Shown here piece after piece: positions 14,228 to 52,371 of a DNA stretch of 52,963 nucleotides. This DNA comes from Polaromonas sp. UBA4122 (GTDB lineage: Bacteria; Pseudomonadota; Gammaproteobacteria; Burkholderiales; Burkholderiaceae_C): the NCBI GenBank assembly GCA_002381615.1, contig DFWY01000140.1, positions 1-52,963 on the forward strand. The letters run 5' to 3'. The notes under the pieces are model-generated. The model ran no database searches and was not told the origin of the DNA. It saw nothing but the letters and a program-made list of their open reading frames with translations. The first letter of the stretch is position 1; every line of letters starts with the position of its first letter. The position numbers and the translations under genes were made by a program.

Positions 14228-15592
14228 ATGAGCCAGCCGATCCCAATGCCCACCCAAGGCGACCTTCACGCCACTCGCCAGGCCCTTCAAGCAGGCCAGA
14301 CCAGCCCCCAGGAAATCCTTGAGCGCGCCGCCGCCATCGCTCAAAGCGAGGCTTGCCGCCATGTTTTTCTGCCAGGCCAGGTGAAAAGCCCGCTTTTGAC
14401 CTCCAAAGCTCCGCCAAAATCCGCCTTCAATGATCCGGCCTTGCCTCTGGCGGGCATTCCCGTCTCAATCAAGGATCTGTTTGACGTGGCGGGCCAAACC
14501 ACTGCAGCTGGATCGACCGTACTCGCCGGTGCCGCAGCGGCCGAGACAGACTGCCCCGCCGTGGCACGGCTGCGCGCGGCGGGCGCGGTGCTCACCGGAC
14601 GCACCAACATGGTGGAGTTTGCGTTCTCCGGCGTCGGCATCAACCCGCACTACGGCACGCCGCTCAATCCGGCTGACCGCACCGCAGGCCGCATTCCGGG
14701 CGGCTCATCGTCGGGCGCGGCTGTGTCGGTGGCCACGGGCGCCGCCCTGGTGGGCCTCGGCTCAGACACGGGCGGTTCCATCCGCATCCCTGCGGCGCTA
14801 TGCGGTATTGTGGGTTTTAAAAGCACGGCACGCCTGGTGCTTACCCTAGGTGCCGTGCCGCTATCCACCAGCCTGGACACCGTGTGCGCCCTGACGCGCT
14901 CGGTACGCGACGCGGTCACGGTGCATGAGGTTCTGGCGGCGCGCACCGTGAAGCTCGCCGGCAAACCCCTGCCATCATGCCGCCTCGCGGTGGCGCGCAC
15001 GCAGATGCAGGACGCGCTGGACGACACCGTGGCCCGGGCTTTCGGGCACAGCCTTCAGGTTCTGCGCGATGCCGGTGCGCACATCGAAGAAATTGCCCTT
15101 GACGAAATCAGCGATCTGGCCGCCATCAATGCAACCGGCGGCTTGTCGGCCGCAGAAGGTTATGCGTGGCACCGGACCCTGATTGCCGAGCACGAGGCCG
15201 AATACGACCCGCGGGTGGCGATGCGCATTCTGCGGGGTGCCCGCATGAGCGCCGCCGACTATATCGATTTGCTGGCAGCGCGCAAGCAGTGGATGGCACG
15301 CATGGAAGCCCGCCTGAGCGGCTTTGACGCAGTGCTCTCTCCCACCGTGCCCATCGTGGCGCCGCCGATTGCCAGCGTGCTGGACGATGACAACGAGTTT
15401 TTCCGGATCAACGGGCTTTTGCTGCGCAACACGGCGGTGGTGAACATGCTCGACGGTTGCGCGATTTCGCTGCCCTGCCACACTCCCGACCAATTGCCCG
15501 TGGGCCTGATGCTCTGGCACGGGGCGCTGCACGACGACGCGGTGCTGGACCTGGCACTCCAGGTTGAAACGGCGCTAGCCCATTCACTATAA
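14228..15592 (+). CDS. Amidase (amidase-signature family, AtzF/GatA-like)
   Basis: A 454-residue amidase-signature hydrolase. The Ser-cisSer-Lys triad is visible: Lys in PVSIKDLFD (~81), cis-Ser in PGGSSSGAAVSVATG (~157) and nucleophile Ser in GSDTGGSIRIPAALCG (~181). Such enzymes hydrolyse small amides such as allophanate, indole-acetamide or aryl amides. The substrate cannot be told from sequence. GatA is unlikely, since gatB and gatC are absent nearby. There is no purine-rich ribosome site before the ATG, so a leaderless or very short-leader mRNA is possible. The stop codon TAA lies inside a palindromic repeat element that begins at the end of the gene. Confidence 0.85.
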   Translation: MSQPIPMPTQGDLHATRQALQAGQTSPQEILERAAAIAQSEACRHVFLPGQVKSPLLTSKAPPKSAFNDPALPLAGIPVSIKDLFDVAGQTTAAGSTVLAGAAAAETDCPAVARLRAAGAVLTGRTNMVEFAFSGVGINPHYGTPLNPADRTAGRIPGGSSSGAAVSVATGAALVGLGSDTGGSIRIPAALCGIVGFKSTARLVLTLGAVPLSTSLDTVCALTRSVRDAVTVHEVLAARTVKLAGKPLPSCRLAVARTQMQDALDDTVARAFGHSLQVLRDAGAHIEEIALDEISDLAAINATGGLSAAEGYAWHRTLIAEHEAEYDPRVAMRILRGARMSAADYIDLLAARKQWMARMEARLSGFDAVLSPTVPIVAPPIASVLDDDNEFFRINGLLLRNTAVVNMLDGCAISLPCHTPDQLPVGLMLWHGALHDDAVLDLALQVETALAHSL

Positions 15593-15644
15593 AAATAATA
15601 GCTGCGCACGCCCGATGGTATTGGGCTATAGGCCTGTTTTATGC
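15587..15644 (+). repeat. Palindromic element R1, copy A (intergenic)
   Basis: About 58 bases starting CTATAAAAATAATAGCTGC, with an inner hairpin GCCC..GGGC and ending TATAGGCCTGTTTTATGC. It supplies the last sense codon and stop of the amidase gene. It aligns with the copies at 16353, 17570, 26405, 35193 and 51006. Confidence 0.8.
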
Positions 15645-15708
15645 ATAAAAAAATGAATACGAACCTGTTCCGCTTTAAATTTATCGCTGTTCTGCCCGGC
15701 ACCACCGC

Positions 15709-16968
15709 ATGAGGGTAGCGGTCATTGGCGCCGGCATCATCGGAATCACCACCGCCTATGAGCTGGCCATGGACGGTCACGAAGTCACCGTGTTTGAACG
15801 CAGGGGCGCCGCGGCGGAAGAAACCAGCTTTGCCAACGCTGGCATTGTCGCGCCCGGCTACATCGCGCCCTGGGCGGCACCCGGCATGCCGGGCAAGGTC
15901 CTCAGCCACCTCTTCAGCCGCCATGCAGCGGTCAAGCTGAGCCTGCCTTTGTCGGGCCGCGAGTTGGCGTGGATGTGGAAGTGGTTTCGAGCCTGCAAGC
16001 TTGAAGCCTACCTGGTCAACCGCTCGCGGTTGCAGCGCCTGGCGTTTTACAGCCGCGAAAGGCTGCACCACCTGAGCACCAAGCTACAGCTGGAATACGA
16101 GTACAGCCTGGGCTACATGGTGCTGCTCCGCTCTGAAAAAGACAGCCAACTGGTTCAACCCGGCCTGCAGGTGCTGCGGGAGGCGGGAGTCGCGTTCAGG
16201 CAAATCAATGCCGACGAGGTTCGCCAGATCGAGCCGGCGCTCAACCCCGACGCCGCCTTTCTGGGGGCCGTGCACTTGCCTGATGATGAGGTGGCAAACT
16301 GCCGGCAGTTTGCGCTGCTACTGAAGATCGAAGCCCAGCGGATCGGCGTCAGTTTCGAGTTCAATACGGTTGTAGCCCAATTGGATCGGGCGCAGGCAGC
16401 TAGTATTTTAATAGCGGGTGAAACCTCGCCGCGCACCTTTGACCGGGTGGTCCTGTGTGCCGGCCTGGCCTCCGCCCAACTCCTCAGGCCACTTGGCCTG
16501 AAGATTCCCATGGTCGCCGTTTATGGCTATTCCATCAGCGCGCCGATTCGCGAACCCCTCAATGCACCGCGCAGCGCACTGATGGACGAGCGCTACAAAG
16601 TGGCCATTTCCCGCCTGGGCAACCGCGTGCGCGTGGCCGGCAGCGCAGAAATCGGCGGTTCGCTTGAACGCAAGCGCGCGTCCTCCCTGCAGACGCTGTA
16701 CAAGGTCTTGCACGACTGGTTTCCGGGGGCGGCCCAGCTCTCCAATACCGGCGCCGGCGTACAAGAGTGGAAAGGTGCGCGACCCATGCTGACCGACGGG
16801 CCCCCCATTGTCGGCAACAGCGGACTGCCCGGCCTCTGGCTCAATATCGGCCATGGCTCCAGCGGATGGGCGCTGAGCTGCGGCAGCGCGCGCGCGCTGG
16901 CCGACCTGATGGCGGGCAAATCCGCAGACATCGACATGGAAGGACTGGACATCAGCCGCCTAGGCTGA
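15709..16968 (+). CDS. dadA: D-amino-acid dehydrogenase (FAD-dependent, DadA family)
   Basis: A 419-residue flavoprotein that oxidises D-amino acids to 2-oxo acids and passes electrons to the respiratory chain at the inner membrane. The dinucleotide-binding motif VIGAGIIGITTAYELAMDGH is at the start, and GLWLNIGHGSSGWALSCGSARALADL at the C-terminus closes the FAD site. FANAGIVAPGYIAPWAAPGMP is typical of DadA. Residues ~215-236 (reading VVAQLDRAQAASILIAGE) are encoded by a palindromic element in reverse orientation. The gene follows the amidase by 116 bases, so the pair may share a role in amino-acid or amide use, which is inference. Confidence 0.88.
   Translation: MRVAVIGAGIIGITTAYELAMDGHEVTVFERRGAAAEETSFANAGIVAPGYIAPWAAPGMPGKVLSHLFSRHAAVKLSLPLSGRELAWMWKWFRACKLEAYLVNRSRLQRLAFYSRERLHHLSTKLQLEYEYSLGYMVLLRSEKDSQLVQPGLQVLREAGVAFRQINADEVRQIEPALNPDAAFLGAVHLPDDEVANCRQFALLLKIEAQRIGVSFEFNTVVAQLDRAQAASILIAGETSPRTFDRVVLCAGLASAQLLRPLGLKIPMVAVYGYSISAPIREPLNAPRSALMDERYKVAISRLGNRVRVAGSAEIGGSLERKRASSLQTLYKVLHDWFPGAAQLSNTGAGVQEWKGARPMLTDGPPIVGNSGLPGLWLNIGHGSSGWALSCGSARALADLMAGKSADIDMEGLDISRLG
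16353..16416 (-). repeat. Palindromic element R1, copy E (inside dadA)
   Basis: Read on the minus strand it starts CTATTAAAATACTAGCTGCC, continues GCGCCCGATCCAATTGGGCTAC and aligns closely with copy A. The dadA frame passes through it without a stop and yields AQLDRAQAASILIAG. The right end of the element is less well conserved. Confidence 0.75.
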
Positions 16969-17013
16969 ACCAGCCGACTGGCGGGACGACTCGTCAGCCC
17001 TCACAATCATGCG

Positions 17014-18624
17014 ATGCAAAGAATATCCAGCACCTTCAGCCAGCCGCTTTACAGCATAGCAGCGACCCGCCAGATTGAACTGCAGGCCGCAGCCAGCCTG
17101 CCGCCGCACACGCTGATGCAACGTGCCGGTCTTTCCATTGCCCGCCTGGCGCTGGCACTGGCGCCCCATGCCCAGCGCATCTGGGTCGCCTGCGGGCCCG
17201 GCAACAACGGCGGCGACGGTTTCGAAGCCGCACTACACCTGCATCAGTGGGGCAAAGCGGTGGTTGTGACCTGGACCGGGTTGCCCCCCGACAAAGCCGG
17301 GTTGCCCCCGGATGCCCACGCATCCCGCGAGCGGGCCCTGGCAGCTGGCGTGCCGATGGCGACCGAGCCGCCACAGGATTTTGATTTGTGCATTGATGCC
17401 CTGCTCGGCATGGGTGCCAGGCTGGACCCCAACCGCGTCGGCACCGGGCTGATGCAGCAGTGGCTGGAGGTGATGCAGGCCAGCCAGGCGCCACGGCTTG
17501 CGGTGGATGTGCCGACCGGGCTTGACGCCGATACTGGCTTCGCAACAGCACTTACAACAACCACTAGCGCTACAAAATCCATAGCTATCTCATCCCTTCC
17601 AGCAAGGGATACAGGCATTTTTACCTTAAGCCTTTTAACGTTGAAAGCGGGGCTGTTTACCGCCAACGGTCGGGACAGCGCCGGCCAAGTGTGGTTTGAT
17701 GATCTCGGCATTAACCCCGAAAATACAGCAAGCACCGCAGAGCCTCGCGCCTGGCTGCTGGGTGCCGACCATGCCAACCAGCCGCGGCGAACCAAAGCCC
17801 TGCATGCCAGCCACAAAGGCAGTTTTGGCGATGTCGCCGTTGTGGGCGGCGAATCCACCGCCACTTCCGCCACGCACATGACGGGTGCCGCCTTGCTGGC
17901 CGCCCGCGCTGCACTGCATGCGGGCGCAGGCCGGGTCTTCGTGGCTTTGCTCGGCAACGCCGGCCCGACCGTGGACCCCCAGCAGCCCGAACTCATGTTC
18001 CGCACGCTAGATGCACTGGATTTGAAGCAACAGGTCGTGGTGTGCGGCTGCGGTGGCGGCGAAGCGGTCAAAACCGTCATCGCCAAAGTGTTGTCAACGG
18101 CGACGCGAGCGGTGCTGGATGCGGACGCGCTCAATGCCATTGCCATGGATCCGCAACTGCAAACCCTGTTGAAAACGCGTCAGCAACGCGCTTACAGCAC
18201 GGTGCTGACGCCCCACCCGCTGGAAGCCGCACGCTTGGCTGGAACCACTAGCGCCGAGGTGCAAGCCGACCGTTTGGCAGCGGCCCGACAGCTGGCAGAG
18301 CGATTTCAGTGTGTGGTGGTGCTCAAAGGTTCGGGCACGGTCATCGCCGCCCCGGGCCAGCAAATCCATATCAATGCAACCGGCAATGCCTTGCTGGCGA
18401 CGGCGGGCAGCGGCGATGTACTGGCGGGCATGCTCGGGGCTTACATGGCCAGCGGGCTGAGTGCTTTTGAAGCGGCCTGCAGCGCGGTGTTTGTGCACGG
18501 TAACAGAGCCGATACGTGGGCGGTCGAGCGGCCCGGCCAGACCCTGACTGCATCGGCACTGGCTGGCGCACTGACCGGCTCTGGCCAACCCTTAGACCAA
18601 CACCATCAGGCCGATCTGCAATAA
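17014..18624 (+). CDS. nnr: Bifunctional NAD(P)H-hydrate epimerase/dehydratase Nnr
   Basis: A fused repair enzyme of 536 residues that rescues hydrated NAD(P)H. The N-terminal epimerase (YjeF_N, ~15-235) shows GPGNNGGDGFEAA at 61-73 and VDVPTGLDADTG near 167. The C-terminal ATP/ADP-dependent dehydratase (~250-530) shows KGSFGDVAVVGG, LDADALNAI, LTPHPLEAARL and GSGDVLAGMLGAYMASG. Residues ~186-206 (SATKSIAISSLPARDTGIF) come from a palindromic element and lie where homologues have a short loop. The 3' end overlaps the opposite-strand yggT gene by 33 bases. Confidence 0.93.
   Translation: MQRISSTFSQPLYSIAATRQIELQAAASLPPHTLMQRAGLSIARLALALAPHAQRIWVACGPGNNGGDGFEAALHLHQWGKAVVVTWTGLPPDKAGLPPDAHASRERALAAGVPMATEPPQDFDLCIDALLGMGARLDPNRVGTGLMQQWLEVMQASQAPRLAVDVPTGLDADTGFATALTTTTSATKSIAISSLPARDTGIFTLSLLTLKAGLFTANGRDSAGQVWFDDLGINPENTASTAEPRAWLLGADHANQPRRTKALHASHKGSFGDVAVVGGESTATSATHMTGAALLAARAALHAGAGRVFVALLGNAGPTVDPQQPELMFRTLDALDLKQQVVVCGCGGGEAVKTVIAKVLSTATRAVLDADALNAIAMDPQLQTLLKTRQQRAYSTVLTPHPLEAARLAGTTSAEVQADRLAAARQLAERFQCVVVLKGSGTVIAAPGQQIHINATGNALLATAGSGDVLAGMLGAYMASGLSAFEAACSAVFVHGNRADTWAVERPGQTLTASALAGALTGSGQPLDQHHQADLQ
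17570..17626 (+). repeat. Palindromic element R1, copy B (inside nnr)
   Basis: It starts CTACAAAATCCATAGCTATC and has the inner hairpin ATCCCTT..AAGGGAT, then ACAGGCATTTTTACC. Compared with copy A (GCCC..GGGC) both hairpin arms have changed together, which keeps pairing. It is translated in frame within Nnr. Confidence 0.78.
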
Positions 18625-19161
18625 CACCAGCAGCACGAGCGTTGACAGATCCACGCCACCTATCGTGGGAATCATGCGCCGTATCGGTGTCAGCAAGGGT
18701 TCGGTCAGGCGCGCCAGCAGGCCATAGACCGGCGAGCCGGGTTGAATCCATGACAGGATGGCATAGCCCAGCACCAGAATAAGCAAGGTCTGCAGGGCCA
18801 CCCGGACCATCATCTTCAAGGCAAACAACAGCAGCGCCAGCACGGCCATGGGTGCGAAGCCCGAGGTCCAGTACGTAGACTCCAGCAGCACGCCGAATAG
18901 CGCACCCCACAATAAGGCATAGACCAGGGCCAGCAATACGGCGGCCAGCACACTGGCCCAGTCCACCCGCGACCGGGTCAGTGACTTGGGCAAAGCACGC
19001 CGCAGCGGCTTGACCAGCCAGTCAGTCAATGCCATCACAAAGCTGCCAGGTTGCGCGCTCATGTTGACCCGCACCCAGTTCATCCAGGCGCGCAGCAGCG
19101 CCGCCCCAATCAGCACGAAGAAAAGGGTCTCAAGCAAAAAGACCAAAATCCGGATCAACAT
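18592..19161 (-). CDS. YggT family membrane protein
   Basis: A 189-residue protein made of two YggT repeats: hydrophobic segments at ~5-25 and 65-110, then ~115-140 and 165-189. Each repeat ends in the amphipathic pattern LTDWLVKPLRRALPKS and LTEPLLTPIRRMIPTIGGVDLS. YggT proteins sit in the inner membrane. Roles in osmotic tolerance, cell shape or photosystem sorting are proposed in various bacteria, and none is settled. It is convergent with nnr with a 33-base antisense overlap and lies 47 bases after rnr on the same strand as rnr. Confidence 0.85.
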   Translation of the reverse strand: MLIRILVFLLETLFFVLIGAALLRAWMNWVRVNMSAQPGSFVMALTDWLVKPLRRALPKSLTRSRVDWASVLAAVLLALVYALLWGALFGVLLESTYWTSGFAPMAVLALLLFALKMMVRVALQTLLILVLGYAILSWIQPGSPVYGLLARLTEPLLTPIRRMIPTIGGVDLSTLVLLVLLQIGLMVLV

Positions 19162-19208
19162 AAATTCCCAAGTTTGCGAATAAAAGAAAAAGTCAGCTTC
19201 AAGAAATC

Positions 19209-21491
19209 TTAGCGGTGGGGTTTTTTGCCGTGCTTGCGGCTGGGATTGCTGGCTGATTTCTTGACTGCTGCCTTGAGCGCCTGAATCGGCGATTTGGGCG
19301 TTCTATTAGCCGTCTTGTCCGCTGTTCTGTCGGTGGCCGCGCTGCGGCTTGCCGAACCGGCACTGCGGCCGCTGGATTGCGACTCCGAACGCTTTCCCGC
19401 GCTTTCGCCGCTCCCTTTGCCTGCACCCTTGCCTCCGGCATGGCGCGTTGCACCACGCTCCTGCGCGGGCAGTTCGGCGGCATGGCCACCGGTCTTGTCC
19501 TTCATGGCCCGGCCCAGCAGTTCTTCGCCCTCATGCACCAGACGGAAGTCGATTTTGCGGCCGTCCAGGTCCACGCGGCTAACCTGAACCCGGACCCGCG
19601 TCCCAATCGCATAGCGCATGCCGGAGCGCTCGCCGCGCAACTCCTGGCGGGCTTCGTCAAAACGGAAGTACTCGCCCCCGAGCTCAGTGATATGCACCAA
19701 CCCTTCCACATACATGGCGTCGAGCGTCACAAAGATGCCAAAACCGGTTGCTGCCGTCACCACGCCACCAAATTCTTCACCCAAATGCTCGCGCATGTAC
19801 TTGCACTTGAGCCAGGCTTCCACGTCGCGGCTGGCTTCGTCGGCCCGGCGTTCATTAGCACTGCAATGCAAACCGGCAGCCTGCCAGGCCAGCTGGTCAG
19901 CACTGATTTTTTTTGGCTTTTCCGTCGGTTCCTTGACGCGGGACGCCAGCCGTTTGGAAAGCTTGGCCTCGGCCTCGCCCGGTGTCGGCAGGATGGGCAA
20001 CTGGTATTTGGTCTTGCCCAGGATGGCCTTGATGACCCGGTGCACCAGCAAGTCGGGGTAACGGCGAATCGGGCTGGTGAAGTGCGTATATGCCTCGTAG
20101 GCCAGACCAAAATGGCCGCTGTTCATGGGCGTGTAAATCGCCTGCTGCATGGAGCGCAACAGCATCGAATGGATTTGCAGCGCGTCGGCCCTGTCTTTGG
20201 TAGCCACAGCAATCTGCTGGAACTCACCCGGCGTCGGCTGGTCGCCGATCGTCATGCCAATGCCCATCGCCTTGAGGTAGTTGCGCAGCATCTCGACTTT
20301 TTCGGGTGTTGGACCTTCGTGCGCGCGAAACAGGCCAACGTGCTTGCTCTGCGTGATGAAGTCGGCCGAGCAGACATTGGCAGCCAGCATGGCTTCCTCA
20401 ATCAGGCGGTGCGCCACGTTACGGGTACGGGGCACAATCTTTTCAATGCGCCCGACCTCATCGCAGACGATCTGGGTTTCGGTGGTTTCAAAATCCACTG
20501 CCCCGCGTACCCCTCGCTCCTTGAGCAAGGCCTGGTATACATCGTGCAGGTCCAGCAAATGCGGCACCAGCACCTTGCGCTGCGCGGCTTCAGGGCCGCG
20601 CGTATTGGCCAGGATGGCGGCCACTTCGGTGTAGGTAAACCGTGCCTGGCTGAACATCACGGCCGGGTAAAACTGGTAGGCGTGAACCTCACCCTTGGCG
20701 TTGACCAGCATGTCGCACACCATGCACAGACGCTCGACATTGGGGTTGAGCGAGCACAGGCCGTTGGAGAGTTTTTCCGGCAGCATGGGAATCACGCGAC
20801 GCGGGAAATACACGCTGGTGGCGCGGTCGTAAGCGTCAATGTCGATGGCGCTGCCGGTTTCCACGTAATGGCTGACGTCGGCAATAGCGACCAGCAGCCG
20901 CCAGCCCTTGCCGCGCCCGACCTTGGCCGGTTCGCAATAAACGGCATCGTCAAAGTCGCGGGCATCTTCACCGTCAATGGTGACCAGCGGAACATCGGTC
21001 AGGTCAACGCGGTGTTTTTTGTCAGTGGGTCGCACCGAGTCCGGCAAGCTGCGGGCCAAGGCCAGCGCCGCGTCGCTGAATTCATGCGGTACACCGTATT
21101 TGCGCACGGCAATCTCTATTTCCATGCCTGGGTCGTCCATCTCACCCAGCACTTCCGTGACACGGCCAACGGGCTGGCCAAACAGTGCGGGGGGTTCAGT
21201 CAGTTGAACCACCACGACCTGACCGGTCTTGGCGATGCCCGTAGCGCCTTTGGGAATCAGCACATCCTGCCCGTAGCGCTTGTCTTCGGGCGCTACCAGC
21301 CAGACGCCACTTTCCTGCAGCAGGCGGCCGATGATGGGGTTGGATGAGCGCTCAATGATTTCGGTCACGCGGCCTTCGGGCCGATTTTTGCGGTCATGCC
21401 GCACAATGCGCGCCTTGACACGGTCCATGTGCAGCACTGCGCGCATCTCGTTGGGCGGCAGGTAAATGTCCGCCTCGCCGTCGTCGCGCAA
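19209..21491 (-). CDS. rnr: Ribonuclease R (RNB family exoribonuclease), start uncertain
   Basis: A processive 3'-5' exoribonuclease for structured RNA. The catalytic RNB domain carries TIDGEDARDFDDAVYCE (metal-binding Asp cluster), followed by HFTSPIRRYPDLLVHR and an S1 domain near ~555-640. The C-terminus is Lys/Ser/Ala-rich (KSQSSGRSAGSASRS..., ending KHGKKPHR), as in RNase R tails. The only usual start codon in frame is a TTG at 21491, but the frame stays open to 21698 and encodes EGTVSGHRDGHGFV directly upstream, which is the normal cold-shock-domain sequence. That upstream part has no ATG, GTG or TTG, so the true start may be rare or lost by a frameshift. The N-terminal helix-turn-helix of E. 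coli RNase R is not seen. Confidence 0.9.
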   Translation of the reverse strand: MRDDGEADIYLPPNEMRAVLHMDRVKARIVRHDRKNRPEGRVTEIIERSSNPIIGRLLQESGVWLVAPEDKRYGQDVLIPKGATGIAKTGQVVVVQLTEPPALFGQPVGRVTEVLGEMDDPGMEIEIAVRKYGVPHEFSDAALALARSLPDSVRPTDKKHRVDLTDVPLVTIDGEDARDFDDAVYCEPAKVGRGKGWRLLVAIADVSHYVETGSAIDIDAYDRATSVYFPRRVIPMLPEKLSNGLCSLNPNVERLCMVCDMLVNAKGEVHAYQFYPAVMFSQARFTYTEVAAILANTRGPEAAQRKVLVPHLLDLHDVYQALLKERGVRGAVDFETTETQIVCDEVGRIEKIVPRTRNVAHRLIEEAMLAANVCSADFITQSKHVGLFRAHEGPTPEKVEMLRNYLKAMGIGMTIGDQPTPGEFQQIAVATKDRADALQIHSMLLRSMQQAIYTPMNSGHFGLAYEAYTHFTSPIRRYPDLLVHRVIKAILGKTKYQLPILPTPGEAEAKLSKRLASRVKEPTEKPKKISADQLAWQAAGLHCSANERRADEASRDVEAWLKCKYMREHLGEEFGGVVTAATGFGIFVTLDAMYVEGLVHITELGGEYFRFDEARQELRGERSGMRYAIGTRVRVQVSRVDLDGRKIDFRLVHEGEELLGRAMKDKTGGHAAELPAQERGATRHAGGKGAGKGSGESAGKRSESQSSGRSAGSASRSAATDRTADKTANRTPKSPIQALKAAVKKSASNPSRKHGKKPHR

Positions 21492-21885: not shown

Positions 21886-21970
21886 GCCCGGGTGGCGGAA
21901 TTGGTAGACGCGCACGGTTCAGGTCCGTGTATCGCAAGATGTGGAGATTCGAGTTCTCTCCCGGGCACCA
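21886..21970 (+). tRNA. leuX-type tRNA-Leu(CAG): tRNA-Leu (anticodon CAG)
   Basis: An 85-base class II tRNA. The acceptor stem GCCCGGG pairs with CCCGGGC and the CCA end is encoded. The D arm is GGCGGAATTGGTAGACGC. The anticodon stem CACGG/CCGTG encloses the loop TTCAGGT, with anticodon CAG reading CUG. The long variable arm is of Leu type, and the T arm contains TTCGAGT. It is followed after 20 bases by a strong terminator. Confidence 0.97.
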
Positions 21971-21990
21971 AAATTACTCAAGTCAAGCAA

Positions 21991-25340: not shown

Positions 25341-25345
25341 GAAGA

Positions 25346-26228: not shown

Positions 26229-26404
26229 TTAGAAACCTTTCAAGGAAGTCTTGTCGCCCAACCCGATAGAGCCACACCAAACTGCCACCCTAACATGGCG
26301 CCTGTCCCCTAACCCAGCCGGCCTCGTTGAAACACACACCCATGAAAAAAGCACCTGCGGACTGAACCGGAGACGCTTTTTTGTTCTATTTTTTTCTGAC
26401 TATC

Positions 26405-26463
26405 GCTATAAGTTCAATAGCGTCTTACACCCGTCCTGCCTGGGCTAGAGCGAAAAAAGTATT
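26405..26463 (+). repeat. Palindromic element R1, copy H (intergenic)
   Basis: It starts CTATAAGTTCAATAGCGTC, continues ACACCCGTCCTGCCTGGGCTAG and aligns with copy A across ~58 bases. It lies 21 bases after the end of ppa, in the gap before the hypothetical gene. The A-rich tail (GCGAAAAAAGTATTAAAATTT) reads as a U run on the minus strand, so it might double as a weak terminator for ppa. Confidence 0.75.
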
Positions 26464-33622: not shown

Positions 33623-34272
33623 TTTTGAGCACTACAGTTACCCGCGATCCGTTACATGTTGAAGCTATTACCGGCGTGATCCTGGCCGGCGGGCGCGGCT
33701 CGCGCATGGGGGGTGTGGACAAGGGCCTGCAAAACTTCAATGGCGTGCCACTGGCTTTGCACACGCTGATGCGGCTGTCGCCCCAGGTGGGCGGCATCAT
33801 GATCAATGCCAACCGCAATCTGGCCGCTTACGAGTCGTTTGGCGTTCCGGTTTGGCCCGATAGTACTGGCCTGGGCGAGTACGCCGGGCCGCTGGCCGGT
33901 TTCCTCACAGGCCTGGAGCGCGTTGAGACGCCTTATATGCTCATGGTGCCCTGCGACACTCCCCTGTTCCCGCAAGACCTGGTGGCGCGCATGGCTGAGG
34001 CTTTTGCGCGCGAAGATGCCGACTTTGCCTTGGCGGCTGCGCCAGAGGAAGACGGACAATTAAGGCCACAGCCGGTGTTTTGCCTGATGCGCATCGGCAT
34101 GCTCGAAAGCCTGGTGCGTTTTACGCAAAGTGGAGGCCGGAAAATTGACGCGTGGACCGCGCAGCACAAAACCGTCATCGTGCCGTTTAACCAGCCCGGC
34201 GACGACCCGCGCGGCTTTTTCAATGCCAACACACTGGCTGAGCTGCACCAGCTGGAGTCGCGCCTGCCATGA
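33619..34272 (+). CDS. mobA: Molybdenum cofactor guanylyltransferase MobA
   Basis: A 217-residue GTP:Moco transferase that makes the guanine dinucleotide form of the cofactor for DMSO-reductase-family enzymes. The nucleotide-binding motif [19 protein letters not shown] is at ~19-37, and [12 protein letters not shown] is the metal site. The ATG at 33619 overlaps moaA by 4 bases, and the stop overlaps moeA by 4 bases in the same way. The ribosome site GGAGG for mobA lies inside the last codons of moaA. Confidence 0.95.
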
Positions 34273-35615
34273 AAACACTGGACCAGATTGCCGACGAGCT
34301 GCAGGGCTACGATCCACAGGCCATGTCCGCCGACGATGTACTGGCCTTTTTGTCGAAGCTGGTCACGCCGGTTCAGGATGTCCTCGAACTGCCCCTGTTT
34401 GAAGCGCTGGGCCGCGTACTGGCGGAAGACGTGATATCGCCCTTTGATGTGCCGCCGCATGACAACTCGGCCATGGATGGCTACGCGTTTGACGGCCAGC
34501 AGCTATCGGCTGATGCTCCGCTGGAGTTGCAGGTGATGGGCACGGCGCTGGCCGGTAAAGCCTGGCAAGGCAGCGTCAACGCTGGCCAGTGCGTCAAGAT
34601 CATGACGGGCGCCATCATGCCGCAGGGCCTGGACACGGTGGTGCCGCAGGAGTTCGTCAAGCTGAGTCAGGTCGGTGAGACCAGCCGCATCACCATTCCG
34701 CCCGGCTTGCTGCGCACTGGGGACAACCGCCGCCGGCGCGGCGAGGACCTGATGCAAGGCAAACCGGCGCTACAAAAAAGTGAGCCTCTTACGCCCGCTC
34801 GTCTTGGTCTGGCAGCCTCTTTGGGCCTTAAAACACTCAAAACATGGCGTCCGCTGCGGGTGGCCTACTTTTCAACCGGCGACGAGATCCTGTCGCTGGG
34901 CGAAGCGCCGCGTGAAGGCGCCGTGTACGACAGTAACCGCTACACCGTCTTCGGCATGTTGAGCCGCATGGGCTGCCAGATGATAGACATGGGTGTGGTG
35001 CGTGACGACCCGGCCATGCTGGAAGCGGCGTTTACCCATGCGGCAACGCAGGCCGACGCCATCATCACCTCGGGCGGCGTCAGCGTGGGTGAGGCCGACT
35101 TCACCAAAGCCATGATGAAAAAACTCGGAGATGTGGCGTTCTGGCGCATTGCGATGCGGCCTGGCCGCCCCATGGCTGTGGGCCGCATATTACCAATCAA
35201 ATCAGCCTCTAGCCCAGACGGGAAGGGCGCAAGCAGCTATAAACAACATAGCAACCCTGATGGTGCTGTTCTATTTGGCCTGCCCGGCAACCCGGTGGCA
35301 GTGATGGTGACTTTTCTGGCTTTTGTGCGCCCTGCCCTGCTGCAGATGATGGGCGCCAGCACTGCACCGGCGCCACAGCTCAAAGCGCGAAGCATGGAGG
35401 CGATTCGCAAAAAACCGGGTCGCACCGAATACCAGCGCGGCTGGGTATCAACCGCGCCCGATGGATCTTTGCAGGTAAAAACCACGGGCAGCCAAGGCTC
35501 GGGCGTGCTGCGTTCCATGGCTGAAGCCAATGGCTTGATGGTGTTGCACCACACACAAGGCAACGTCGCCATTGGCGATGAGGTCGATGTGATGATGTTC
35601 GATAGCGTCATTTAA
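34269..35615 (+). CDS. moeA: Molybdopterin molybdenumtransferase MoeA
   Basis: A 448-residue enzyme that inserts molybdate into adenylylated molybdopterin. Visible motifs are [13 protein letters not shown] (~57-70), [15 protein letters not shown] (~114), the catalytic [11 protein letters not shown] (~202), the MoCF-like [12 protein letters not shown] (~272) and the C-terminal domain IV. Residues ~309-328 ([16 protein letters not shown]) are encoded by a reversed palindromic element inserted between AVGRI and [18 protein letters not shown], where homologues have a direct join. That explains the ~35-residue excess over the usual ~410. Confidence 0.95.
35193..35251 (-). repeat. Palindromic element R1, copy C (inside moeA)
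   Basis: On the minus strand it starts CTATGTTGTTTATAGCTGC, continues TTGCGCCCTTCCCGTCTGGGC and ends TAGAGGCTGATTTGATTGG. It aligns with copy A over its whole length. MoeA is read through it in a frame different from that used in dadA and dnaX. Confidence 0.8.
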
Positions 35616-43401: not shown

Positions 43402-43413
43402 CGAGACCCATGC

Positions 43414-45719: not shown

Positions 45720-45740
45720 GCAGCTCGGGCGAAGCTTGAT

Positions 45741-45893
45741 TTACAGCCGAAACGACCCCGTCCCGAACAGGCCAATCAAGCCGATGACGATCAGGTAGAT
45801 CGCGACGATGTAGTTCAGCAGACGGGGGATGAGCAGGATAAGAATGCCCGCGATCAGAGAGACGATAGGAGTGATACTGTGTGAGAGATTCAC
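45741..45893 (-). CDS. DUF3096 family small membrane protein
   Basis: A 50-codon gene with a GTG start preceded by AAAGGA. The product reads MNLSHSITPIVSLIAGILIL, then PRLLNYIVAIYLIVIGLIGLFG, with a short basic end. It has two hydrophobic stretches split by the PRLLNY turn, so it would form a small hairpin in the inner membrane. This matches the DUF3096 pattern I know from many proteobacteria, whose function is not known. It is convergent with mltD, with 21 bases between the stops. Confidence 0.78.
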   Translation of the reverse strand: MNLSHSITPIVSLIAGILILLIPRLLNYIVAIYLIVIGLIGLFGTGSFRL

Positions 45894-46060
45894 GGTGTTT
45901 CCTTTGTGTTGGTAGCCGGCTCACCGCGGTCTCAATAAAGTACCGAGGCCATCGCAGAGATCGGACTCTTAACTTTACGCAGCCGCACAAGATACGGCTG
46001 TAGGACGACAGGAAGAGTTGTGAAAAAGCTGCCTGACCGAAGATATTTAAGACGTCTGGT

Positions 46061-46909: not shown

Positions 46910-47741
46910 CCTTCTTTAATTGCTGCGCATAGCCCTTGAGCACTTCGTCGCGCAGCACGTTCCATATCTGCGTGTGCAGCGCCACAAAGCGCGGCTGATT
47001 TCGGGCCTCGGCCACATCACGGGGGCGTGGCAAGTCAATAATGAATTCTCCGATGGGGTGCGTCCCCGGGCCAGCCGAGAGCACCACCACGCGGTCACTC
47101 ATGGCAATCGCTTCGTCCAGATCGTGCGTGATAAACAGCACCGCTTTCTTTTTAGCCGCCCACAAGTCCAGCACTTCATTTTCCATGAGCTGGCGAGTCT
47201 GGATATCCAGCGCGCTGAAAGGCTCGTCCATCAGGATGATGTCGGGGTCCAGTGCCAGGACTTGCGCCAGCGCCGTGCGCTTGCGCATGCCGCCCGAGAG
47301 CTGGTGCGGGTAACGATCACCGAACTCGCCCAGGCCCACACGCTCCAGCCAGACTTGTCCCTGCGCGCGGGCTTCGCTATCGGGGACGCCGCGGTATTGC
47401 AGGCCCATCATGACGTTGTCCAACGCGCTGCGCCAAGGCATCAGCGCGTCACTCTGGAACATGTAGCCTGCGCGCGTGTTGATGCCGCGCAGCGGCTCGC
47501 CAAACACCCTCACTTCACCCAACGAAGACTCCAGCAGACCGGCGCCAATATTGAGCAGCGTGGACTTGCCGCAACCCGTGGGGCCGACCACCGATACAAA
47601 CTCGCCAGCGTTGATGCGTAGCGTGGTGTTGCTGACGGCGGTGTAGCGCTGGCCCGCATCATCCCGCGACCGGAAGGTGCAGGTGATATCGAGCAACTCA
47701 AGGGCGTAATCGTTGTGGTTATGGTTGGTGATATCTGGCAT
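46902..47741 (-). CDS. ABC transporter ATP-binding protein (SsuB/TauB type)
   Basis: A 279-residue nucleotide-binding subunit. Walker A GPTGCGKSTLLN is at ~55-66, the Q-loop in GYMFQSDALMPWRS, the signature LSGGMRKRTALAQ at ~148, Walker B IILMDEPFSALD at ~169 and the switch His in LFITHDLDEAIAMSDR. It hydrolyses ATP on the cytoplasmic side to drive the permease that follows, with which it overlaps by 8 bases. Confidence 0.93.
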   Translation of the reverse strand: MPDITNHNHNDYALELLDITCTFRSRDDAGQRYTAVSNTTLRINAGEFVSVVGPTGCGKSTLLNIGAGLLESSLGEVRVFGEPLRGINTRAGYMFQSDALMPWRSALDNVMMGLQYRGVPDSEARAQGQVWLERVGLGEFGDRYPHQLSGGMRKRTALAQVLALDPDIILMDEPFSALDIQTRQLMENEVLDLWAAKKKAVLFITHDLDEAIAMSDRVVVLSAGPGTHPIGEFIIDLPRPRDVAEARNQPRFVALHTQIWNVLRDEVLKGYAQQLKKVA

Positions 47742-47816
47742 GGCGGGAGCTTACAGCAAGCGGCCTGCCCCGCTGAAGGCGGGCAGCAGGTGCGTCTGCA
47801 GTCTGTATAAAGCCGC

Positions 47817-48866
47817 TTAAGCCTTGAACCGATCTTTCGCCCGGCGTGCAAACACGTTGGTATAGGTTTTGGCAAGGTCGATCTTGTCGGCCTTGATGCT
47901 CGGGTCAAAACTTGCCAGTGCCTTCAGGGCCGTCCGAGCGCCATCGTCAGGGATGATGCCATCGAGCGCGATGGAATCGCGCACCTTGTTGAAAGAAGCC
48001 AGATACAACGCACGGTCACCCAACAAATAGCCCTCAGGCACGGTCTTGATGATGTCTCCAGGCCCCGCGGTCTGCAGCCACTTGAGGCCGTGAACGATGG
48101 CATTGGCCAGCGCCTGGCAGGTGTTGGGGTTCTTCTGGATGAAGGCCACAGGCGCATACAGGCAAGCCGCCGGCATGGGGCCGCCAAACACATCGATCGT
48201 GCCCTTGAGCGTGCGCGTGTCACTGATGATTTTGACCTCCCCCTTTTGCTCCAGCATGGTCATGACCGGATCGATGTTGCAGATGGCGTCAATCTGGCCC
48301 GAGCGCAGCGCGGTGAGTGCGCCCGCAGCGGTTCCTACACCGATAAAGCTCACGTCGCTGGCCTTCAGGCCGCCGCGCGACAACACCAGATTGGCCATCA
48401 TGTTGGTGGACGAGCCGGGTGCCGATACACCGATCTTCTTGCCCTTGAGGTCGGCAATCGATTTGTAGCCGGCCATGTTTTTGGTGGAAACGCCAAACGC
48501 AATCTGCGGCGCCCTGCCCTGCAATACAAAAGCCTGAAACATCTGGTTCTTGGCCTGCAGGTTGATGGTGTGTTCAAAGGCGCCTGAGCAGACATCAGCC
48601 GACCCACCGACCACAGCCTGCAAAGCACGCGAGCCACCAGCAAAGTCGCTGATTTCAACGTCCAGGCCTTCCGCCTTGAAGTAGCCCAGCTGCTCGGAAA
48701 TCGTCAGCGGCAGGTAATAAAAAGCAGCCTTGCCACCCACGGCGAGTGCGATTTTTGTTTTCTCAAGCCTGGACTGCGCACGCAGGGAGGGCAAGGCAAG
48801 CGAGGCCGCAGCCAGCGCGGCACCGCTGGCAAAGCGTCGACGGGAAACAAGGGGTTGGCGGTTCAT
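47817..48866 (-). CDS. ABC transporter substrate-binding protein (SsuA/NMT1-like)
   Basis: A 349-residue periplasmic binding protein. The start MNRQPLVSRRRFASGAALAAASLALPSLRAQS has a twin-arginine motif (SRRRFA), so export by Tat is likely. The ATG at 48866 has AGAGGA 7 bases before it. Upstream in-frame ATGs at 48884 and 48935 are less likely. The body shows the NMT1/THI5-like pattern LGYFKAEGLDVEISDFAGGSRALQAVVGGSADVCSG. It is the first gene of the importer unit. The 75-base gap to the ATPase gene has no clear signal. Confidence 0.9.
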   Translation of the reverse strand: MNRQPLVSRRRFASGAALAAASLALPSLRAQSRLEKTKIALAVGGKAAFYYLPLTISEQLGYFKAEGLDVEISDFAGGSRALQAVVGGSADVCSGAFEHTINLQAKNQMFQAFVLQGRAPQIAFGVSTKNMAGYKSIADLKGKKIGVSAPGSSTNMMANLVLSRGGLKASDVSFIGVGTAAGALTALRSGQIDAICNIDPVMTMLEQKGEVKIISDTRTLKGTIDVFGGPMPAACLYAPVAFIQKNPNTCQALANAIVHGLKWLQTAGPGDIIKTVPEGYLLGDRALYLASFNKVRDSIALDGIIPDDGARTALKALASFDPSIKADKIDLAKTYTNVFARRAKDRFKA

Positions 48867-48915
48867 TGCAGAGTCCTCTGTCATTTTGGATAGCATGAGC
48901 ATAGAGGGGCCAAAT

Positions 48916-48949
48916 AAAACCCGCATTGGGGTCATCCCGTGCGGGTTTT
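48916..48949 (-). terminator. Hairpin terminator between MAPEG gene and ABC operon
   Basis: A perfect 10-bp stem AAAACCCGCA/TGCGGGTTTT with a 14-base loop, T-rich on both sides. It lies 70 bases after the MAPEG gene stop and 50 bases before the binding-protein start, so it probably ends MAPEG transcripts. It could also act as a leader hairpin if the importer promoter lies further upstream. Confidence 0.7.
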
Positions 48950-49018
48950 TACTGAAGGATCGGTCGAAGTTACAAACAGTTACATGTCCGCTAACGCCCG
49001 CGACACATCGGAAAAGAA

Positions 49019-49432
49019 TCAGCGATAGCCTGAAAAAAGAATGCCCATGTTGACGAACAGCGCAAGCGCCCAGATCGTCGACCGGGCTTTGGCCAGGTCA
49101 GCGACATACATCATGATGTAGGCGATGCGCAGCACGACAAACAACAGGGCCAGAATGTCCAGTTGGGTCTGCCCCGCCTGCAGCAGGTGCGCAATGATGA
49201 CCGCCGCAAAGAAAAACGGCAGCGCCTCAAAAGTGTTGGCCTGGGCTGCATTGGCTCGGGCGCGCCAGTCGGTCTGCCGCGCCAGCCAGGCGCGCGGATT
49301 GTTGTTGTCGTAGCCGCCCTCGCGTTTGGGCGTGCTCACCATGCCGGACTTGGCGATCCCGGCGCACACCATGGGTAGCAAGGCGGCGACCAGAACACAC
49401 CAGTAAGCGATGGTGAAGCGCGCAGACGTCAT
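49019..49432 (-). CDS. MAPEG family membrane protein
   Basis: A 137-residue protein with four hydrophobic segments. It has the MAPEG pattern: RARANAAQANTFEALPFFFAAVIIAHL (the conserved N-E-x-x-x-F-like helix) and VVLRIAYIMMYVADLAKARSTIW. MAPEG members include glutathione-dependent enzymes, but the bacterial ones of this type have no proven reaction. I start at the ATG at 49432 (MTSARFTIAYW). The frame stays open to 49552, but that overlaps recR. Confidence 0.83.
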   Translation of the reverse strand: MTSARFTIAYWCVLVAALLPMVCAGIAKSGMVSTPKREGGYDNNNPRAWLARQTDWRARANAAQANTFEALPFFFAAVIIAHLLQAGQTQLDILALLFVVLRIAYIMMYVADLAKARSTIWALALFVNMGILFSGYR

Positions 49433-49493
49433 GATGAAAGTCCTTTGTTTGTATTTTTTCCCAGCGAGGGCGCCTATGCATTCATTGCCGTAC

Positions 49494-50120
49494 TCACCGC
49501 CGGTCAACCAGCGCGTGGGCAATCGTTCCCAAATCGACGTATTCGAGTTCACTGCCCACCGGCACGCCGCGCGCCAGGCGCGTCACCTGCACGCCGCGGC
49601 TTTTCAGCGCCTGCGCGATCACATGCGCCGTGGCCTCGCCCTCGGCGGTGAAATTGGTCGCCAGAATGACCTCCTGCACCTCGCGCGAGTCCGCTGGCAG
49701 CGGCTCACCGCGCTCGTCCCTGGGTACCACCCGGTCAAATAGTTTTTGCAGGCCAATGTCGTTGGGGCCCACGCCGTCCAGCGGGCTGAGCTTGCCCATG
49801 AGCACGAAGTACAGGCCCCTGTAGGCCAGCGTACGCTCCAGCGCCGCCTGGTCGGCAGGCGTTTCAACCACGCACAGCTTGCTGCGGTCACGCTGCGGGT
49901 TGGCGCAGGTTGCGCAAACTTCCTGCTCGGTCAGGGTGTTGCACAGTGTGCAGTGCCGGATGCTGTTGACCGCATGCTCCATGGCCCGCGCAATCTGCAG
50001 TGCGCCGGGCTTGTCGTGCTGCAGCAGATGAAAAGCCATGCGCGCAGCCGACTTGGCACCCACGCCCGGTAACTTGCGCAGCGCCTGGGTCAGGCCTTCA
50101 AGCGCATTGGAGTTAGCCAC
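49494..50120 (-). CDS. recR: Recombination protein RecR
   Basis: A 208-residue protein that with RecF and RecO loads RecA on gapped DNA. An N-terminal HhH motif ([20 protein letters not shown]) is followed by a C4 zinc finger ([16 protein letters not shown]), a Toprim domain ([16 protein letters not shown]..., [18 protein letters not shown]) and the C-terminal [24 protein letters not shown]. The order dnaX-ybaB-recR is conserved across bacteria. The gap to ybaB is 27 bases. Confidence 0.96.
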
Positions 50121-50147
50121 AGTGGTTGAATGCTACGACAGCTTGGC

Positions 50148-50480
50148 TTAGAAAGGAAACTTCATGCCGCCGGGAAGTGCCGGCATGCCTGAGGTCAGCT
50201 TGCCCATTTTTTCCTGGCTGACTTCCTCGGCCTTGCGCACGGCGGCATTGAACGCAGCGGCCACCAGGTCTTCGAGCATGTCTTTGTCATCGGCCAGCAG
50301 GCTGGGGTCGATTTCAACGCGTTTGACGTCGTGCTTGCAGGTCATCGTGACCTTTACAAGGCCGGCGCCAGCGTCCGCAGTCACTTCCACAAAAGCCAAC
50401 TCATCCTGCGCTTTTTTAAGGTTGTCCTGCATCGCCTGCGCCTGTTTCATGAGGCCGGCAAGTTGTCCTTTGTTAAACAT
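50148..50480 (-). CDS. ybaB: Nucleoid-associated protein YbaB/EbfC
   Basis: A 110-residue dimeric DNA-binding protein. It starts [28 protein letters not shown] (charged helix) followed by [32 protein letters not shown] and [18 protein letters not shown]. The ATG at 50480 follows AAAGGAAAAAAC. The C-terminus is Gly/Met/Pro-rich ([14 protein letters not shown]), as in homologues. It lies between dnaX and recR as usual. Confidence 0.94.
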
Positions 50481-50520
50481 GTTTTTTCCTTTAAATTTTG
50501 ACTCTAAAAACTGGTGTCGA

Positions 50521-52371
50521 TCATATCGACTGGGACACAACAGGCCGGATGCTGCCCGGAATAATCCTGGCGTCCCAGTCGCGAATCATGTCCTGCACCA
50601 ACGGGTCCTTGTGAATCAACTCTTCGGCGGCGCGTTGTTTTTCAGCCAACGCAGCGGCGTTGCGGCGCGCCGGGGTGTCCATCACAGCGCCCACTTCCAC
50701 GGCCAGCTGGACGAAAGAGTCTCCCAACAGTTGTTGTAACGCCGCCTGCAACTTCTCGCGGGCGGCGGGTTGGCTCAGGGCTTCGCGCTCGACGCGCAAG
50801 GTCCACACGCCACCGTCCTGACTGCGCAGCTCGGACTGCAATGCAAGTTCGCGCGTCAGTGCAGCAACCGCTTCGGCGGCTACCAGCTGGTTCACGGTCT
50901 GGCTCCATGCATCGCCGAGCGGAGTAACCGCCAAGGATGCCGTTGGCACAAAGGCTTGCGGTAGCTGCGCGGGGGCCGGTGCGGCAAGCTGCTCAACAGT
51001 CGCTTCTGTATTGATAGCAATAGACGCCCTATCCACCTGAGCTAGAGCCTCATGTGACTCATGAATTTTGCCCGAAGCAACTTCCGCTACACGCTCAGCC
51101 ACCTGCGCTACTGCCTGCGCCGCCACCGGCCTTTGAGGCAGCGCAGGGTCGCAGGCCTTAGCCTCTTCGATGTGGCTCAGGACAGGCAGCTCAGGCTGTG
51201 GCTTTTTTCCAGGCTCGGCGGCGCTCCCCGGCGTAGCGGCCTGCGCGGCAAACACCGTAACCCCTGGGGGCTTGAAAGCCAGCAGGCGCAGCATCACCAT
51301 GGTTAGCGCGGCATATTCGTCGGGTGCCAGGCCCAACTCACCGCGGCCATGCAGGCACAGGCTGTAGAGAAGCTGGGTTTCATCGGCGGGCAAGATGTGG
51401 GCCAGCCGTGCCGTTTCAGCGACTTCGGGGTCACTGTCGTCGCCTCCAGCGCCCATATCGGGCACCGCCTGCAGCACCGCCATGCGCTGCAGCACCGTTG
51501 CCATTTCTTCCAGCGTGGAAGCAGCGCTCAGGCCATTGAGCCGCAAGACTTCAGAGGTTTCCACCACCGTCCGGCCATCGCCGCGCGCCAGCGCGTCCAG
51601 CAAGCGAAACACATAACTGCGATCCACGCTGCCCAGCATGGTGCGCACGCTGCCCTCTTCCAGGCGGCCCGAGCCAAAGGAAATGGCCTGATCGGTCAGC
51701 GACAAGGCATCGCGCATGGAGCCGCGCGCGGCACGTGCCAGCAGGCGCAAGGCCTGCGGTTCAGCCGGTACGCATTCTGTGGTTAGCACCTGCGTCAAAT
51801 GCTCCAGAATGGTCTCGGGTGCCATGGGCCGCAGGTTGAACTGCAGGCAGCGCGACAACACCGTAGCCGGCACTTTTTGCGGATCGGTCGTGGCCAGTAC
51901 AAATTTGAGGTATTCGGGCGGCTCTTCCAGCGTCTTGAGCATGGCGTTAAACGCCGTGTTCGTGAGCATGTGAACCTCGTCAATCATGAAGACCTTGAAG
52001 CGGCCCACCACCGGCTTGTAAACCGCCTGCTCCAGCAACTGCGCAATTTCATCCACGCCGCGGTTGGACGCTGCGTCCAATTCGGTGTAGTCCACAAAGC
52101 GGCCGCTGTCGATGTCGGTGCACGCCTCGCAAACACCGCAAGGTTCGGCAGTAATGCCGCCCTGCCCGTCGGTGCCCGTGCAATTGAGCGACTTGGCCAG
52201 AATGCGCGATACGGTTGTCTTGCCGACCCCCCTGGTGCCGGTAAAAAGGTAGGCATGGTGCAAGCGCCCGGTGCTGAGCGCATTGCCAAGCGCCTGCACC
52301 ACATGCGACTGACCCACCATTTCAGAGAAATTTCGGGGGCGGTATTTGCGGGCAAGAACTAGATAGGACAT
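50521..52371 (-). CDS. dnaX: DNA polymerase III subunits gamma and tau
   Basis: The clamp-loader ATPase, 616 residues. Walker A is [15 protein letters not shown] (~45). A zinc site uses the Cys residues in [23 protein letters not shown]. Walker B is [12 protein letters not shown], and SRC in [10 protein letters not shown] is the sensor segment. The tau-specific C-terminal part is long and ends in a Pol-binding domain. Residues ~438-456 of the linker ([18 protein letters not shown]) come from a palindromic element. I do not see the A-rich slippery site that makes gamma in E. coli. Confidence 0.96.
51006..51060 (+). repeat. Palindromic element R1, copy D (inside dnaX)
   Basis: It starts CTGTATTGATAGCAATAGACGCCC, with centre TATCCACCT, then GAGCTAGAGCCTCATGTGAC. 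It is shorter and more diverged than copy A, but TAGC, CGCCC and GCTAGAG line up. It is translated (opposite strand) as part of the variable DnaX linker in the same frame used in dadA. Confidence 0.65.

Follow-up and report, generated by a model that had tools for sequence, protein, structure and literature searches.

A 52,963-nucleotide contig of Polaromonas sp. UBA4122 (assembly GCA_002381615.1, contig DFWY01000140.1; hereafter, the window) carries copies of a dispersed DNA motif of about 67 bp, six of which an original prediction, made from the letters of the contig, had described as a family of palindromic elements. We find that the sites of this motif are inherited, and that they are maintained and rewritten in place, in parallel, into species dialects. 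The motif is abundant and nearly fixed in length, its copies are independent of one another, it is confined to the chromosome in the one species in which this was compared, its orthologous sites have been rewritten in parallel, and several copies occur in place within conserved proteins. From these observations we infer that a recogniser acts on the motif in trans and that this recogniser serves DNA uptake: the motif would be a DNA self-label of ~67 bp whose reader is most likely the natural-transformation uptake apparatus, a reading to which we give about an even chance.

All six copies are present where the original prediction had placed them and align without internal gaps once corrected for strand (in a set of 26 copies). 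A profile from genome G014 of the same genus recovers them at 47.2 to 15.7 bits; its final training rows came from G014 alone and its seed included the window copies, so that it is not wholly independent of them. A first model (R1) gave the six copies E-values of 2 × 10−17 to 6 × 10−11, which are partly circular because R1 contained these copies. Four copies had been placed inside genes, and this is confirmed by Pfam identification of the hosts as an FAD-dependent oxidoreductase (PF01266, ‘dadA’), nnr (YjeF_N and Carb_kinase), moeA and dnaX. Aligned copies share the layout GCTAT, seven A/T-rich bases, ATAGCTGC, GCGCCC, a variable centre, GGGCTA and AGGC, with the core consensus GCTAT-N7-ATAGCTGCTTGCGCCCGT-N6-TGGGCTAGAGGC-N2-ATTT and A/T-rich tracts at both ends. 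Conservation in the 46 copies above 40 bits spans approximately columns 4 to 70, and the unit is therefore ~67 bp long with A/T-rich ends. Its length is nearly fixed: 290 of 297 copies (at least 15 bits) were unchanged and 7 were off by one base, a count that we prefer to a separate one (0 of 273), which included copies retrieved with a pattern of fixed spacing. Copies that were half degenerate (25 of 281) kept, by eye, the register of the other half. Strong G014 copies mostly have 35–54% GC, and the potential hairpin has two dialect-dependent registers, GCCC/GGGC and, in Acidovorax, GCGCTT/AAGCGC.

A genome-wide search for further copies, which the original prediction had called for, found many. 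A strict pattern had 21 matches in the window’s own genome (2 of them in the window), 69 in G014 and none when read backward, and R1 had at least 150 matches in the window’s genome. In 1.2 Mb of G014 we identified 240 copies of at least 12 bits (best reversed-control score, 9.8 bits), which extrapolates to ~900 copies per 4.5-Mb genome if they are uniformly distributed, and in 400 kb of the chromosome of Polaromonas naphthalenivorans CJ2, a member of the window’s GTDB genus, 69 copies passed the same threshold (best reversed-control score, 8.9 bits). At 20 bits or more, 273 copies were found in 1.65 Mb of G014, CJ2 and the window taken together, and the reversed sequence had none reaching 15 bits. 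Copies showed no clear strand preference in G014 (108 vs. 129, p = 0.19) and their spacing was random and not regular (coefficient of variation 0.86–1.12 vs. 0.98). The proposal of a real, dispersed family with no assigned function is thereby upheld. Matches with E ≤ 0.001 were found in 25 of 31 genomes of the genus, 11 of which had at least 150 each, and the remaining 6 had none. In an order-wide sample of 150 genomes, under stricter filters (E of 1 × 10−6), only the window’s genome and one genome of the same family had matches. A pattern scan of named genomes returned at least 120 matching stretches; the 80 matches listed came from Simplicispira, Acidovorax, Rhodoferax, Polaromonas, Ottowia, Giesbergeria, Diaphorobacter, Variovorax, Comamonas and Paenacidovorax, genera that we take to belong to Comamonadaceae, and from metagenome-assembled genomes or genomes named only to higher ranks. 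In IMG/VR, 12 stretches matched the motif search.

Comparison of orthologous sites carries the main conclusion. By DNA alignment we identified 23 orthologous pairs between G014 and CJ2 (22 distinct sites per side) with the motif in both genomes. Within these pairs, identity was 0.62 at low-information columns, compared to 0.31 under random pairing, which indicates that the sites were inherited; it was 0.86 at conserved columns and fell to 0.39 at the dialect columns 44 and 47–49, where G014 tends to TGGGCTAGAGGC and CJ2 to TGCGCAAAAGGC. When scored with models trained on other sites, CJ2 copies fit the CJ2 dialect in 23 of 23 cases and G014 copies fit their own in 18 of 23, and the dialect ordering within pairs was correct in all 23 (Wilcoxon p = 2 × 10−7). 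The full swap from G44/T47 in G014 to C44/A47 in CJ2 was seen in 11 of the 23 pairs and the reverse in none. Loci from Acidovorax carry a third form, GCGCTT...AAGCGCTAGAGGC, some letters of which were fixed by the pattern used to fetch them. Because many inherited sites have been rewritten in parallel, something must read them all.

The copies themselves show little sign of having been derived from one another. Among 132 strong G014 copies, the maximum identity over 15 low-information columns was 12, compared to 11.8 in shuffled columns, and the mean of the top ten pairs was 11.2 vs. 10.9, so that there is no clear sign of recent spread by copying or of full-length homogenisation; an analysis of all columns does show excess identity, as expected because conserved columns and unequal decay are included. 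We found no clear subfamilies or near-identical pairs in these 132 copies, and no target duplication or flanking direct repeats beyond chance (best excess, ~5 of 232 copies). Gene conversion between copies is disfavoured, given the near-independence of uninformative columns that are flanked by conserved ones. Separately, contig C90 of the window’s genome carries three near-identical copies within ~10 kb (383–418, 4398–4433 and 10373–10408), unlike the rest of the family, which are perhaps a segmental duplication.

Placement along the genome is uneven. Scanned plasmid DNA of CJ2 (535,165 bp of ~956 kb) contained 1 copy, compared to 92.3 expected from the chromosome. Low-GC 10-kb segments (below 56% GC) held 0.25 copies in G014 (4 segments) and 0.33 in CJ2 (3 segments), whereas the other GC classes held 1.2–2.6 copies per 10 kb, despite the A/T-rich composition of the motif; in CJ2, the largest sampled interval lacking copies spans 30.5 kb and has a GC content of 48%. 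According to a simple gene caller, by which 88% of the G014 sequence is coding, 61 of the G014 copies fall within genes, 34 run across a gene end and 145 lie between genes. Intergenic copies were more frequent than expected between convergent genes (43 vs. 18.1) and less frequent between divergent genes (20 vs. 44.4). The claim that copies are translated within genes holds, and few frames are used: 55 of the 61 genic copies are read in two of the six frames, namely an antisense frame giving LAQ..RAQ.AI (n = 32) and a sense frame giving AT..IA..AR..WA.G (n = 23). A further antisense frame, SASSP..TGASSY, was used in just 3 genic copies even though 38% of 130 intergenic copies keep it open, which indicates that the encoded peptide matters, beyond stop codons. 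By eye, one G014 stretch (contig C9, 28393–30175) has three copies in adjacent dnaE2-like and imuB-like genes. Together with the ligA-like and dnaX copies, this hints at an association with DNA maintenance genes, such as is reportedly seen for the uptake sequences of Neisseria. Names of G014 genes (dapE, ligA, prmB, purL and others) were assigned by eye, the Pfam search having covered the window genes.

In some genes the copies lie within a protein of unchanged length. Orthologues of ‘dadA’ are equal in length, with motif scores that form a gradient from 53 to 16 bits. Alignments to solved glycine oxidases run across the position of the copy with a gap of at most 3 residues, as printed, and no stretch the size of the unit. 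At the second of two moeA sites, the protein segment is conserved and has one length in aligned members of the genus, with scores ranging from undetectable to 49.8 bits (in genome G012). The original prediction had reasoned that the same residues in orthologous genes of distant relatives would point to chance similarity or ancestral coding; such sharing was indeed found in part, in many members of the genus, and it means that the sites are inherited and maintained, not that they are there by chance.

If the motif is read in trans by the uptake apparatus, its history could be as follows. A recognition sequence of ~67 bp would be maintained site by site, by selection or by biased exchange. Fragments carrying it would be favoured in import and would replace the resident sequence of their own locus by recombination, and better copies would then spread in situ, often by base substitution and sometimes with gained sequence. 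The expected outcome would be hundreds of chromosomal copies, few copies on plasmids or in low-GC DNA, and species dialects, and within genes the motif would be tolerated only in frames that yield a bearable peptide. A Comamonadaceae self-recognition system may thus read a 67-base word and drive hundreds of sites, those in protein-coding sequence included, along a changing dialect, a proposal that we hold with evenly balanced confidence. Features of the uptake class that we observed are the high copy number on both strands, the dialects and the scarcity on plasmids. Uptake sequences have been described in two families, Neisseriaceae and Pasteurellaceae (PMC3630211, PMC1626085, in the parts available). 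The DNA uptake sequences of Neisseriaceae resemble the motif in their very many chromosomal copies and their species dialects but, as far as that description goes, have ~10–12 bases and a tested role in uptake, compared to ~67 bases and a putative role here (PMC3630211). The uptake signal sequences (USS) of Pasteurellaceae share with it a core with flanking segments and clade-specific types, and they originate by base changes in coding sequence already present, as many sites of the motif may have done; according to the available part of the source they have a 9-base core and rarely involve gaps, compared to 6 of 15 loci in gained stretches for the motif (PMC1626085). Because in-gene sites are only partly free of insertion and the effect on uptake, on which membership in the class turns, is presumed, we limit ourselves to the statement that the motif works like an uptake sequence, for which the case seems to us about as strong as the case against.

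Natural transformation is documented in relatives. It occurs in Acidovorax temperans, A. facilis and Verminephrobacter eiseniae, and in V. eiseniae it needs type IV pili. DNA from a different Acidovorax species was not accepted by any of the Acidovorax strains tested, and an excess of foreign DNA lowered uptake by V. eiseniae only slightly; the authors suggested sequence specificity, and the available part of their paper names no motif (PMC4212676). Loci of A. temperans carry the motif. In a search of the open-licence literature for competence and uptake sequences in Polaromonas and Acidovorax, only this paper looked relevant, judged by its listing, and no paper pairing ‘DNA uptake sequence’ with Comamonadaceae was found there. 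ComEC scored over the cut-off in 26 of 31 genomes of the genus. In several of them, ComEC matches are split by ~150–320 bases near profile position 274–301 (for example, G014 contig C12, 394126–396261), which suggests an extra protein segment.

A number of observations weigh against a reading by the uptake apparatus. To compare lengths, 18 of the 26 genic copies of at least 30 bits in the first 400 kb of G014 were sampled and 30 of the listed matches were fetched as homologues; with 3 copies lacking a homologue among the fetched loci and one comparison not spanning the element, this gave 15 loci and 32 comparisons to element-free genomes (G005, G013, G023 or G043). At 8 of the 15 loci the net change was at most 2 residues relative to at least one element-free relative (zero at 4 of these), one locus had +3 and +9 residues in its comparisons, and 6 of 15 had gained 8 or more residues (range 8–24) in every comparison. 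Gains of at least 8 residues occurred in 15 of 32 comparisons at elements and in 1.4% of 552 flanking segments of the same size. In G014, they amount to +8 to +17 residues in moeA, +12 to +19 in a dapE-like gene, +24 at locus 67899 and up to +20 at locus 93885. At the first moeA site, protein alignment shows that the stretch is absent or shorter in element-free relatives. Both modes thus occur, with some sites in proteins of unchanged length and others in gained sequence; the latter class genuinely supports the insertion of the unit, or at least of a part of it, and an insertion may have been the starting point of some sites. This contrasts with the USS of Haemophilus, where gaps are few and, in the part of the paper available, the scarcity of gaps serves to show that USS are not insertions (PMC1626085). 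The idea that the elements were inserted into genes accordingly may hold for some of them, such as those in the gained stretches of moeA and the dapE-like gene, and is unsupported as a general rule, given the absence of gain in ‘dadA’ and at the 4 gapless loci of 15.

The remaining points on that side are of several kinds. The information content of the motif is 53–59 bits, which to our knowledge far exceeds that of known uptake sequences. ComEC was over the cut-off in 5 of the 6 element-free genomes and therefore does not separate element-rich from element-free genomes, and records of A. defluvii carry the motif though this species, like A. delafieldii, was not transformed in the published tests (PMC4212676, in the part available). 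The scarcity of copies on plasmids comes from one species, CJ2, whose plasmids may be recent arrivals. Sites for the dialect comparison were chosen with each genome’s own model, which leans towards the result obtained (a scan of both genomes with a single model gave the same dialect letters, unscored), and one of the pairs is identical at columns 44–49. Pairwise identity at low-information columns varied slightly more than it did in shuffled columns (variance 3.50 vs. 3.20, with 0 of 500 shuffles reaching it); in the flanks, variance was similarly slightly raised (6.11 vs. 5.86). Finally, at two loci (L314, 1287–1345; L315, 235–280) an IS200-like insertion sequence with a Y1 transposase adjoins a motif copy. 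Homology between the insertion sequences begins at the end of the motif copy, with the motif in opposite orientations, and the element is common to the window’s genome and genome G016 (87% identity over 676 bp). The insertion sequence may select the motif as a target site, much as others reportedly do with repetitive extragenic palindromes (REPs), but this arrangement is also the one trace of mobilisation.

The chief rival explanation, which we consider unlikely although by no means negligible, is that the motif is bound by a protein that organises or marks the chromosome (like the sites of MatP, SlmA and Noc), kept by ordinary selection and rewritten when the protein changes. It would account for the near-fixed length, the parallel rewriting, the scarcity on CJ2 plasmids and the dyad-like arms, and strict CJ2 matches are scattered from 0.3 to 4.2 Mb, as it would allow. 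Each of ~800–900 sites would, however, need selection of sufficient strength to alter positions that code for protein, and the sites of chromosome organisers are shorter and normally have one sequence throughout a family, which counts against this explanation. Were the reader such a different protein, it would still be unusual for inherited sites throughout a chromosome to have been rewritten in parallel. Less probable again is a non-autonomous mobile element resembling the palindromic elements of Rickettsia, with old insertions that were then inherited and decayed. Patchy presence across the genus agrees with it, as do the 6 of 15 in-gene loci in stretches 8–24 residues longer, which approach the length of the unit in the dapE-like gene (+19) and at loci 67899 (+24) and 93885 (up to +20), and the Y1 element abutting a copy at L314 and L315 could be a trace of targeting or mobilisation. 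Yet the 132 copies include no near-identical ones or clear subfamilies, no target duplication was seen, a single copy was found in 535 kb of CJ2 plasmid DNA, and inherited pairs could not have come to match the local dialect through decay alone. Of the 31 genomes of the genus, 30 have Y1 transposase genes, element-free ones included, and among 30 fetched Y1 loci (~3 kb each) 8 had any motif match, 2 had one above 30 bits and 22 had no copy. The suggestion of a small mobile element is consequently unsupported, in view of the lack of visible copying and target duplication, the near-absence from sampled CJ2 plasmid DNA, and the rewriting of dialects in place. A system of REPs with their associated tyrosine transposase (RAYT) does not fit: copies do not generally flank Y1 transposase genes, and the 2 of 30 loci above 30 bits both abut the IS200-like element.

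We regard as very improbable a hairpin acting at the level of the transcript, as a terminator or an RNA-processing or stability element similar to REPs or bacterial interspersed mosaic elements. The enrichment of intergenic G014 copies between convergent genes and their depletion between divergent genes would suit such a role, but avoidance of promoters explains this pattern equally well, and copies lie within genes on both strands. The original prediction had reported covarying hairpin arms. In 232 copies from one genome, stem A paired at the level of shuffled arms (0.904 vs. 0.907) and stem B barely above it (0.884 vs. 0.873, with 5 compensatory cells vs. 2.3 expected), so that this claim is not borne out, and a structured RNA element was rejected on the lack of base-pair covariation. 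The six window copies fold about like shuffled sequences (z from −1.8 to +0.4), one consensus of the GCGC type folds better than shuffles as DNA (z = −2.6), and Rfam had no match at gathering scores at the positions of the window copies.

The motif also has to be set beside repeats described before. A scan published in 2017 listed 125 copies of the pair ATAGCT(N)22CAAAAG in CJ2, of which 101 (81%) were intergenic, as an unexplained motif pair, and noted that no genome had more motif pairs than that of Rhodoferax ferrireducens (PMC5217627). In spacing and letters this pair agrees with our motif and is its CJ2 dialect; relative to the available part of that report, the full length, the dialects, the orthology and the family-wide spread are new here (PMC5217627). 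A likeness to Rickettsia had also been noted in the original prediction, and we return to it at this point. The Rickettsia palindromic elements are short, capable of forming hairpins, translated within genes and regarded as insertions. Shortness, hairpin capability and in-gene translation are shared with the motif, and some of its copies do lie in gained stretches; unlike those elements, approximately half of the testable copies add no length, there is no signature of copying, and copies are maintained and rewritten in place.

If the uptake reading is correct, the motif represents a third, much longer class of uptake sequence beside those of Neisseriaceae and Pasteurellaceae, and it could account for the barrier to transformation reported between species of Acidovorax. 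The old problem of what spreads these words, biased uptake or function, could then be examined on natural replicates, since the letters at one inherited site differ between dialects. Whatever protein reads the motif, the peptides that it encodes in moeA and in dapE-, purL- and ligA-like genes (names assigned by eye) would owe their form to a DNA word and not to protein function.

Within the window, the six copies described earlier are joined by three weaker ones.

Motif copies and candidate sites in the window (positions in the 52,963-nucleotide stretch; bits refer to the G014 model unless stated otherwise).
Feature	Position	Strand	Evidence
Further copy, absent from the original prediction, inside lpxB (125–1270, −)	597..646	+	26.5 bits; orthologous G014 copy 39.6 bits, gapless
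Weak candidate copy inside dxr (7934–9121, −)	8841..8903	+	19.2 bits; orthologous G014 place 14.0 bits
Copy covering the final 11 bases of an amidase gene, the remainder intergenic ahead of dadA	15582..15649	+	44.1 bits; R1 model 51.6 bits; orthologous G014 copy 55.9 bits
Copy in FAD oxidoreductase gene ‘dadA’ (15709–16968, +), read as SFEFNTVVAQLDRAQAASILIAGE, no length gain	16353..16416	−	44.8 bits; relatives 53 to 16 bits at the same place
Degenerate copy in nnr (17014–18624, +), variable-length loop	17567..17627	+	15.7 bits; orthologous G014 copy 52.3 bits, gapless; protein alignment
Intergenic copy	26402..26454	+	33.3 bits
Weak second moeA site, conserved protein position, no length change	34768..34832	+	13.5 bits; 16.8 bits with G014 model; codon alignment; up to 49.8 bits in relative G012
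Copy in moeA (34269–35615, +), stretch missing or shorter in element-free relatives	35189..35254	−	47.2 bits; protein alignment; G014 orthologue net gain 8–17 residues
Copy in dnaX (50521–52371, −), linker	50998..51065	+	20.2 bits; orthologous G014 copy 55.9 bits

The nnr matches in G044, CJ2 (G024), G042, G015, G012 and G043 each contain one in-frame stop, which may be an artefact of the match end.

Two other groups of repeats were considered for the motif and set aside. The beta-proteobacterial repeat element (BRE) of Hot and co-workers has been counted in Polaromonas, Rhodoferax, Acidovorax and Bordetella, with some copies in genes, and is described in the available part of the source as ~90 bp long, on average 69% GC in Bordetella and partly tandem, compared to ~67 bp, mostly 35–54% GC and a dispersed arrangement for the motif; identity with BRE was rejected on composition and length, the comparison being made by description (PMC3110155). 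The GTAG/CGTC REPs were rejected also, the main text of the relevant paper making no mention of Polaromonas, Acidovorax, Rhodoferax or Comamonad- (PMC3733652). The window itself contains a GC-rich inverted pair (10763–10834 and 52402–52472) with arms of 45 and 38 nt that are 87–91% complementary and lie ~41.6 kb apart; its composition and host family fit a BRE repeat, again by comparison with the available description (PMC3110155). Beyond the start of dnaX, a bacterial small signal recognition particle RNA (Rfam RF00169) is located at positions 52556–52652.

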